From assembly GCA_015521685.1 (NCBI GenBank), contig WANT01000017.1, positions 1 through 49,852 of the forward strand: a stretch of 49,852 nucleotides of DNA, written 5' to 3'. Numbering within the stretch: position 1 is the first letter of the stretch; each line of letters opens with the position of its first letter. Under the pieces are notes generated by a model. The model was given only the letters and a program-made list of their open reading frames with translations. It was not told where the DNA came from and ran no database searches. The DNA is from Aeropyrum sp. (GTDB lineage Archaea > Thermoproteota > Thermoprotei_A > Sulfolobales > Acidilobaceae). Below, piece after piece: positions 25,966-49,748 of this stretch. Made by a program: the position numbers and the translations under genes.

Positions 25966-26036
25966 GGCGGATGAAGATACTTGCCCCCACCTGATGATCT
26001 ACAGTGGTGAAGAGATTACCGCGGACTTCAGACGCC
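25966..26036 (+). ncRNA. Candidate C/D-box guide sRNA with complement to the 16S 530 loop
   Basis: Elements in order are a 5' stem GGCG (25966-25969), a C box ATGAAGA (25971-25977), a 13-nt guide, a perfect D' CTGA (25991-25994), 9 nt, C' GTGGTGA (26004-26010), and a second guide containing ATTACCGCGG (26015-26024). A poor D box follows (CTTC at 26026 or CAGA at 26029), then CGCC (26033-26036), which pairs with GGCG. ATTACCGCGG is the exact complement of the universal CCGCGGUAAU of the 16S 530 loop. The first guide contains ACTTGCCC, complementary to GGGCAAGU, which I recall just upstream of that loop in crenarchaea. A TATA-like TTTAAA at about 25932-25937 fits a start near 25962. Confidence 0.45.
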
Positions 26037-26058: not shown

Positions 26059-26406
26059 GTGGAGGGCGAGCTCAAGGATTTGGCTAGCCTCCTGGAGGGT
26101 ATGGGCTTCAGGGTTGTAGCCGCGAGGGAGAGGTTTAGGACGCTGGATAGACTGGATGTGGCTGAGGTTTGGGTGGTCAGGGCTTATAGTAAAGGCGAGC
26201 CAAGGGCTAAGATAACAGTATCTAGCAGTGGAGGTGGAGGAGAGTTCAGGGTCCACATCTATTTGAGGGGTGTTGGTGAGGGTGATGTAGAGGATGTGGT
26301 GGAGAGCTATGGGGGATCTATAGACTATATTGGTGAGGACGCGCTATTGGTCTTCAAATCTATAGATATCAAGAAGCTCGGTGAGCTTATTGAAAAGATG
26401 TTTTAA
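26059..26406 (+). CDS. Hypothetical protein (115 aa)
   Basis: A 115-residue acidic alpha/beta protein that I do not recognise. It alternates helices and strands (LKDLASLLEGMGFRVVAARERF, AEVWVVRAYSKGEPRAKITVS, FRVHIYLRG, DVEDVVESYGGSIDYIGEDALLVFKS) and has no cysteine, membrane or nucleotide motif. The start is GTG at 26059, with GGTGGAG a few bases upstream. It lies directly downstream of the 16S-complementary sRNA candidate and 7 bp before another unknown gene, so the two proteins are probably expressed together. Confidence 0.65.
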   Translation: MEGELKDLASLLEGMGFRVVAARERFRTLDRLDVAEVWVVRAYSKGEPRAKITVSSSGGGGEFRVHIYLRGVGEGDVEDVVESYGGSIDYIGEDALLVFKSIDIKKLGELIEKMF

Positions 26407-26413
26407 CGGCCTC

Positions 26414-27592
26414 ATGCTACCAGAGGCTGAAAACTATCAGGATCTAGTCAGCACGAACCAGTGGATATCCATCCCAGGTATAGCCCCAGTCTTCCTAGAA
26501 GCTGGACTAAACGCTGGAGGGATTGCGTCTAACACAGGATGCCTAGTGAGGCTGTCCTGCGGCACCTATCAGTGGGGCTTCGGGGAGCTTGTTGCAGACT
26601 ATCTGGGAGAGCCTCCACACGGCTTTACCATGTCCTACAGCGTAATAAGGCCCCCGAAGGGGCTAGAGGCGCAGAGTTTTGATGAGGATATAGTGGAGAA
26701 CTCGGTTTTCAACCCGTTCTCGTGGCGACCATTACTGCCTATTCCAGCTCCCATCGGTGGCTGCGTAGAATCCGAGGCTGGATACGTATCTATGGCTTCT
26801 ATAGATCCGGCCGCATCCGCACCGATATCTCGGTGTGCCACTCCCAGCCTTCAAAAGAGGATTTCGACCCACAAGGTTGGTGGAAGTTTGATCGAGGTCG
26901 AGGGCGCCAGCTATGGAACTCTCCTACTAATAGCTACTAAGAGCTTTGTGGGAGTTGCTTCAAGATCAGGGCCCATGGTTTTGGATCCTCTGGAGAAACC
27001 AGCTACGCTCACCATAAGAACGGGTGTGGCATCACATAGGATGACATTACTCTATGGTGCTGCAACCGCGTCCTTCAAGCTAGAATCTGCTAGTGTAAGG
27101 GCTAACGTGGTCAGTGTTGAGGGGCCGGGGCTAAAACTGTCTCTAGCCTCGCCAGGGGGTGTTTTAGTTGTAGCAAGGCCCGGGCATCTTGAGGTGGAAT
27201 TCTCTAGTATACTGGGGATTGTTGAGGGGCGGACTCCACAGGGCTATAGAGCCCTCTTAGAGCTGCTCTACACTTACGAAACCATGGACCGCGCTCCAGC
27301 AAGGTTGGGAAACTTCTATTCAGTTAAGGCCCATGCACTGCTACAGGGCACTAGTGATGGAGCCATCATTATAAAGTCGGTTTCTTTGGAGGAGGAGGGT
27401 GGTGGGACTGTCTACTTTAACCCTCCCTTCCCTGCAAGCACAGTAGAAGTCTATGCCATTTCAGGCGTTGAAACTCTACCAGGTGGCCCAAGAATAAGCC
27501 TGCCTACACCAGCATGCGGGTGCATAGTCGCCGAGGTAAAGGCTCGAACTAGCAGGCTCTTGGAAAGAATGAGAAGGCTAAGATATGGGTGA
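26414..27592 (+). CDS. Hypothetical beta-rich protein (392 aa)
   Basis: A protein of about 392 residues that I cannot assign. The composition is dominated by beta strands and glycine-rich turns (SLIEVEGASYGTLLLIATKSFVGVA, ASFKLESASVRANVVSVEGPGLKLSLASPGGVLVV). The last 60 residues (TVYFNPPFPASTVEVYAISGVETLPGG, PACGCIVAEVK) feel like the C-terminal beta domain of glycoside-hydrolase-type proteins, but no catalytic domain is visible. It has no signal peptide or membrane helix. I use the ATG at 26414, 7 bp after the previous stop; a GTG at 26381 would overlap the previous gene by 26 bp. Confidence 0.6.
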   Translation: MLPEAENYQDLVSTNQWISIPGIAPVFLEAGLNAGGIASNTGCLVRLSCGTYQWGFGELVADYLGEPPHGFTMSYSVIRPPKGLEAQSFDEDIVENSVFNPFSWRPLLPIPAPIGGCVESEAGYVSMASIDPAASAPISRCATPSLQKRISTHKVGGSLIEVEGASYGTLLLIATKSFVGVASRSGPMVLDPLEKPATLTIRTGVASHRMTLLYGAATASFKLESASVRANVVSVEGPGLKLSLASPGGVLVVARPGHLEVEFSSILGIVEGRTPQGYRALLELLYTYETMDRAPARLGNFYSVKAHALLQGTSDGAIIIKSVSLEEEGGGTVYFNPPFPASTVEVYAISGVETLPGGPRISLPTPACGCIVAEVKARTSRLLERMRRLRYG

Positions 27593-49673: not shown

Positions 49674-49748
49674 GGGCCCGTCGTCTAGCCTGGTCAGGAC
49701 GCCGCCCTTACACGGCGGAGGTCCGGGGTTCAAATCCCCGCGGGCCCA
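49674..49748 (+). tRNA. tRNA-Val(UAC)
   Basis: A full cloverleaf without intron. Acceptor GGGCCCG (49674-49680) pairs with CGGGCCC (49741-49747), the discriminator is A at 49748, and CCA (49749-49751) is encoded. The anticodon stem CCGCC/GGCGG encloses CTTACAC, giving anticodon UAC (valine, GUA codons). The T stem CGGGG/CCCCG encloses TTCAAAT. The D arm has GTCT and GGAC around AGCCTGGTCA. The gene sits in AT-rich surroundings, with CTAAAAAG just upstream. Confidence 0.96.

Follow-up and report, generated by a model that had tools for sequence, protein, structure and literature searches.

Architecture of the C/D-box locus

The window, by which we mean the whole 49,852-nt stretch of Aeropyrum DNA analyzed here, carries on its plus strand a C/D-box sRNA gene at positions 25966-26036, in which boxes C, D′, C′, and D follow in order and are enclosed by a closing stem. 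The layout reads GGCG-G-ATGAAGA-TACTTGCCCCCAC-CTGA-TGATCTACAGTG-GTGAAGA-GATTACCGCGGACTT-CAGA-CGCC, with TGATCTACAGTG forming the loop between D′ and C′ (Table 1). An initial annotation of this DNA had proposed a C/D sRNA at exactly these coordinates, and all elements it named are present in the sequence. Its identification stands: the boxes and closing stem are there, they are kept in relatives, and a covariance model of the family detects the gene.

Table 1. Parts of the sRNA gene and its upstream element, in window coordinates.
Feature	Position	Strand	Remarks
Possible TATA box, TTTAAA	25933..25938	+	~33 nt upstream of the 5′ arm
Closing stem, 5′ arm, GGCG	25966..25969	+	Partner CGCC, 26033-26036
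Box C, ATGAAGA	25971..25977	+	From the family alignment
Guide 1 (D′ guide), TACTTGCCCCCAC	25978..25990	+	16S E. coli 502-510; predicted target G504 (archaeal alignment 481)
Box D′, CTGA	25991..25994	+	Direct reading and alignment
Box C′, GTGAAGA	26007..26013	+	C′ register of orthologs
Guide 2 (D guide), GATTACCGCGGACTT, 15 nt	26014..26028	+	ATTACCGCGG pairs with 16S E. coli 525-534
Box D, CAGA	26029..26032	+	3 nt off the ancestral register; adjoins the closing stem, as in orthologs
Closing stem, 3′ arm, CGCC	26033..26036	+	Partner GGCG, 25966-25969

Boxes C (ATGAAGA) and D′ (CTGA) had been read correctly in the initial annotation; C′ had been placed at GTGGTGA (26004-26010) and is moved here to GTGAAGA (26007-26013), because orthologs carry RTGANGA followed by a spacer and then box D, the spacer measuring 12 nt in 88 of 96 parsed members. 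For the last D box, CTTC and CAGA had both been offered and the uncertainty flagged as the weak point of the candidate. CAGA adjoins the closing stem in the window as box D does in orthologs, which makes its assignment firm. CTTC, which would restore C528 as the target of the D guide, was rejected, since it would leave AGA between box D and the stem and since CTNC cannot form the G-A pairs. The flagged weakness is real and informative: CAGA is not the consensus CUGA, and it lies 3 nt off the ancestral register (see below). Among the 46 relatives used to train the covariance model, box D is CTGA in 24, CAGA in 6, CCGA in 5, and CGGA in 3, so that its second position varies freely; judged by these counts, the CAGA of the window is a tolerated variant of the consensus and not an excluding feature. 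The same training members have ATGANGA as box C in 44 cases, the G-A pair C3.D4 is possible in 46/46, and the sheared G-A partners of the boxes are retained in nearly all orthologs.

The hexamer TTTAAA before the 5′ arm had also been correctly noted. TATA-like hexamers lie at the same distance in 28 of 73 family members vs. 8-20 of 73 in control windows, a modest enrichment that is only suggestive of a TATA box for the sRNA gene. An Rfam scan of the window gave no match above the gathering threshold at the sRNA (best score 16.5 vs. 45), the sole match above gathering in the whole window being a tRNA gene at 49674-49748. The archaeal C/D families in Rfam (snoPyro_CD RF00095, sR23, sR41, and others) resemble the window RNA in generic C/D architecture, strand, and approximate extent, but all score far below gathering on it, and no Rfam family recognizes it. 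Folding of the sRNA alone was not better than that of shuffled sequences (z -1.2), as expected for a k-turn RNA, and so lends no support either.

Conservation, distribution, and gene neighborhood

A covariance model was trained on 46 relatives, all from outside the genus Aeropyrum, with the window held out. It recovered the window RNA at 57.7 bits (E 3.4e-12) as the sole match in its 1.44-Mb genome, where the next hit had an E-value of 2.4. Searches at the DNA level also found relatives inside the genus and beyond. With the covariance model, orthologs were detected in 116 of 229 genomes of the class, and matches were obtained in 73 of 398 genomes sampled from the phylum, including members of more distant families (e.g., f25 and f38). 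No f11 genome, among those listed in the phylum search, gave a match at E 0.001, and the RNA seems to have been lost or replaced in this family of the same order. An exact-pattern scan of 84,980 species, represented by one genome each, returned 64 matches, of which 60 fell in thermophilic Thermoproteota-type archaea and four in bacteria (L057, L070, L076, L082).

The closing GGCG/CGCC arms, as proposed in the initial annotation, form a stem that covaries across the 46 orthologs. The covariation score, a count that also takes in four pairs between the boxes, was 0.41 vs. 0.18 in shuffled alignments, none of 500 of which reached it; it exceeded that of every slid register, and two-sided changes occur in all 7 scored pairs. 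The guides are nearly invariant. Of 95 distinct orthologs, 87 retain CTTGCCCCC unchanged and 92 retain ATTAYCGCG, whereas the distance from guide to guide ranges from 16 to 41 nt. Comparison with relatives, suggested at the outset as a check on the candidate, thus found guides, boxes, and closing stem all kept. We regard this conservation as the decisive evidence for a gene, the case from the single sequence being moderate.

In family f7 (L183, L186, L188, L190, L192, L194, L195, L196), box C is ATGTTG[TG] and box D is CAGA followed by ACCCC; these box letters depart from the usual k-turn letters and are common to many members. Weak matches at L200 and L201 (genomes G081 and G082) have C/D boxes with other guides, GCCGCTCC and CATCAYGACGG; they represent another C/D sRNA, which is conserved in both genomes.

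A thioredoxin-like gene or the ORF corresponding to window positions 26381-27592 lies near the sRNA in 48 of 118 loci examined, and this synteny supports orthology. The sRNA is directed towards this ORF in the window and at L027 and L029 and away from it at L022 and L023; since the orientation flips, a leader of the downstream gene is unlikely and an independent gene is indicated. This bears on the reading of the locus as a chance resemblance in intergenic DNA, or as an element in the 5′ leader of the ORF lying ~20 nt downstream, at 26059. The complementarity of either guide alone is within the reach of chance (see below), which would suit such a reading; against it stand the family-wide conservation and covariation, the sRNA pointing away from the same neighbor in A. 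pernix- and A. camini-like genomes, and the overlapping short ORF, for which nothing beyond a local similarity in two close relatives was seen. We consider it highly improbable.

In Ignisphaera-type and some other loci (L033, L043, L047, L072, L080, L083, L084, L086, L125), a second C/D-like unit (ATGATG..CTTGGCCGTTAC..ATGAGGA..GGTAGCC..CTGA) lies directly upstream of the sRNA. Its box D runs into the closing stem of the sRNA, giving a tandem pair that is probably co-transcribed.

Pairing with 16S helix 18 and relation to known guides

No 16S or 23S rRNA gene was found in the window's own assembly, and pairing was therefore tested on two complete genomes of the same genus, G003 and G005. We take G005, G003, G038, and others to represent A. 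pernix K1, A. camini, and I. hospitalis. The 16S genes of G005 and G003 carry an insert at the same site (L010, 699 nt, in G005; L013, 63 nt, in G003) with alike ends (AAAGGTCCG[CT]GGGAGGGG ... CTCCCCGGGCCCAGC); a second insert, of 141 nt, is present at a different site in G003.

In both genomes, positions 3-11 of guide 1 pair with 16S E. coli 502-510 through nine consecutive Watson-Crick pairs, placing G504 at the +5 position; in guide 2, positions 5-14 form ten such pairs with 525-534, and C525 is at +5. The initial annotation had directed both guides to the 530 region of 16S rRNA, one as a 10-nt complement of the 530 loop and the other to just upstream of that loop, and the pairing agrees with it, in the Aeropyrum relatives as in the family. 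Helix 18 is identical in the relatives whose 16S was read, save for one U/A difference just beyond the guide 1 match and changes outside the guided stretches. The 530 pseudoknot pairs 16S nucleotides 505-507 with 524-526 (PMC7356742); guide 1 spans one of these strands fully and guide 2 spans two of the three nucleotides of the other, and a short stem at ~512-515/536-539 is left free by both.

Taken singly, neither guide's complementarity is strong evidence. When runs were scored against the 2.2-kb A. pernix-like 16S gene, with each Watson-Crick pair counting 1 and each G-U pair 0.5, 31% of shuffled versions of guide 1 and 5% of guide 2 scored equally well. The joint chance of at least nine and at least ten Watson-Crick pairs, with the two guides within 40 nt of each other, is ~1e-4.

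The closest known RNA is Iho sR206, which was detected by RNA-seq in Ignicoccus hospitalis (Dennis 2015, PMC4644070). Its D guide targets position 505 (and G*36, with mismatches) and its D′ guide position 482, in a numbering that assigns 507 to E. coli G530 (Dennis 2015, PMC4644070, Table 3). For L105, the ortholog detected here in I. hospitalis, the +5 sites fall at 486 and 463 of its own 16S, 23 nt apart, which correspond to alignment positions 505 and 482; these equal the published sites, and the RNA of I. hospitalis has therefore already been published as sR206. Our 16S scan, at the thresholds used, did not recover the G*36 site for the D guide. The window RNA shares with sR206 the 16S target regions, the guide cores CTTGCCCCC and ATTACCGCG, and the box order. 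It differs in its D′ target, at 481 one nucleotide away from 482, and in box D, which in sR206 keeps the ancestral distance (+5 at C528) and in the window is shifted by 3 nt. The Aeropyrum RNA is a member of a known family, the sR206 group.

Other double-guide C/D sRNAs act on the same helix. Tte sR114, Iho sR21, Pca sR28, and Sac sR115 are helix 18 double guides with targets A512 and G491 (PMC4644070), and are similar to the window RNA in this respect; however, their targets correspond to E. coli A535 and G515, as opposed to G504 and C528/C525 in the window's family, and they thus represent a different guide pair. The targets of the window RNA are 481 and 502 in archaeal alignment numbering, not A512/G491, and a pattern search for sRNAs of the A512/G491 type with two mismatches allowed gave matches comparable to the control. 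A protein offers a parallel of another kind. RsuA, the bacterial pseudouridine synthase responsible for pseudouridine 516, favors helix 18 while the 505-507/524-526 pseudoknot is still unformed (PMC7356742). RsuA is a protein enzyme, bacterial, and makes a different modification; its preference may serve by analogy only as a functional parallel for a checkpoint at the fold of helix 18.

Box D displacement and the role of the D guide

The feature that sets the Aeropyrum RNAs apart is the position of box D relative to the conserved CGCG of guide 2. This offset is 2 nt in 88 of 96 parsed members according to the script, and by eye also in L176, L189, and L197, where the script's stem register was wrong. 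The remaining five of the 96 are all from Aeropyrum, and only these differ, with 4 nt in L027 and L029 and 5 nt in the window, L022, and L023. More distant relatives also keep 2 nt as far as they are readable (e.g., CGCG-GA-CTGA). The predicted target of the D guide is thus C528 (alignment 505) in every non-Aeropyrum ortholog, whereas each of the five matching Aeropyrum genomes has its box D shifted by 2-3 nt. The window sequence is consistent with an insertion of three nucleotides into box D of the ancestral form (GACT-TCA-GA), an event that would have created the new box D, CAGA.

As a consequence of the shift, the +5 position moves from C528 to C526 or C525, while the antisense to 16S is intact in all five genomes and even one pair longer (CGCGG). 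In G002 and G004 pairing extends over guide positions 3-13, and C526, at +5, lies well within the duplex. C525 at +5 forms the last pair of the duplex in the window, L022, and L023, where guide positions 1-4 have no continuous helix to 16S G521-G524. The D′ guide of the window has nine Watson-Crick pairs with +5 inside the helix; its D guide has ten, with +5 at the helix edge and a spacer of 15 nt, and because of the 3-nt shift it is not at the usual distance for methylation of the ancestral C528. Another exact guide of the C528 type, TTACCGCGNNCHGA, had no match in G000, G002, G003, or G005. Its single match in G004 (L242) was discarded as a C528 guide, having no C/D boxes around it and by eye resembling part of a coding region. 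As far as the literature was searched, the Aeropyrum-specific displacement is undescribed, and no survey of Aeropyrum sRNAs was found in the open literature.

The locus is very probably a stand-alone double-guide box C/D sRNA gene orthologous to I. hospitalis sR206, a judgement that extends to the following mechanism as a whole. Genes for fibrillarin and Nop are present in the window's genome, and the sRNA would be bound by L7Ae, Nop5, and fibrillarin. The D′ guide would pair with 16S 502-510 and, by the +5 rule, direct 2′-O-methylation of G504, and the D guide would pair with 525-534. Because the guides cover both pseudoknot strands (505-507 and 524-526) and leave the short stem free, the ribonucleoprotein should hold the pseudoknot open, presumably during early 30S assembly, and would release it after methylation. 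In most orthologs the D guide would methylate C528 as well. In Aeropyrum its +5 would fall on C526 or C525, the four nucleotides beside box D having, in the sub-lineage of the window, no continuous helix.

What the D guide still does in Aeropyrum can be read in more than one way. An ordinary methylation RNA at both sites, with the D guide retargeted from C528 to C526 or C525 and still methylating, is a serious possibility, if one that falls somewhat short of even odds. It is plausible in G002 and G004, with C526 deep in the duplex, and in the window the ten Watson-Crick pairs formally include C525 and so satisfy the nine-pair rule for guides (PMC4644070). Conversely, the terminal +5 pair in the window, L022, and L023 and the lack of a continuous helix at guide positions 1-4 argue against retargeting, as does the length of the window's D guide, 15 nt compared with 10-12 nt in published guides (PMC7994747).

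A displaced D guide might also have gained a second target in the 16S intron, with the box D-proximal CCGCGGACTT pairing with AGGTCCGCGG at the intron's 5′ end. This is the second-best small-subunit match of the window guide (ten contiguous pairs, nine of them Watson-Crick, at guide positions 1-10), and it sits where the 699-nt insert of G005 starts; the insert of 63 nt in G003 opens with a similar sequence. Yet its score of 9.5 lies near the 95th percentile of shuffled guides, and the guides of the G005 and G003 organisms themselves pair less well with it (nine pairs, eight or seven of them Watson-Crick), and we consider an intron target improbable.

Mismatches next to the +5 position on the box D side hinder methylation, and in the window just these pairs are missing, which favors annealing. 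From the displacement of box D and the lack of a continuous helix beside it, the D guide of the window probably acts mainly by annealing, as a chaperone. We judge the two alternatives, annealing without efficient methylation and methylation of C525, to be of similar likelihood, or the former to be somewhat likelier. The broader proposition, that the Aeropyrum D guide gave up site-specific methylation and was kept only for annealing, so that chaperone and methylation roles would be separated at the decoding-site pseudoknot, is put forward tentatively.

It has long been proposed that C/D sRNAs serve as chaperones of rRNA folding, but the idea is difficult to test, since annealing and methylation are normally coupled. 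In the five Aeropyrum genomes the pairing with 16S has been kept while the ruler for the methylated nucleotide has moved by 2-3 nt, and the genus may therefore offer a clean test of chaperone vs. methylation functions. The displacement bears on whether annealing by itself can be under selection, at a position where folding of the pseudoknot controls the decoding center.
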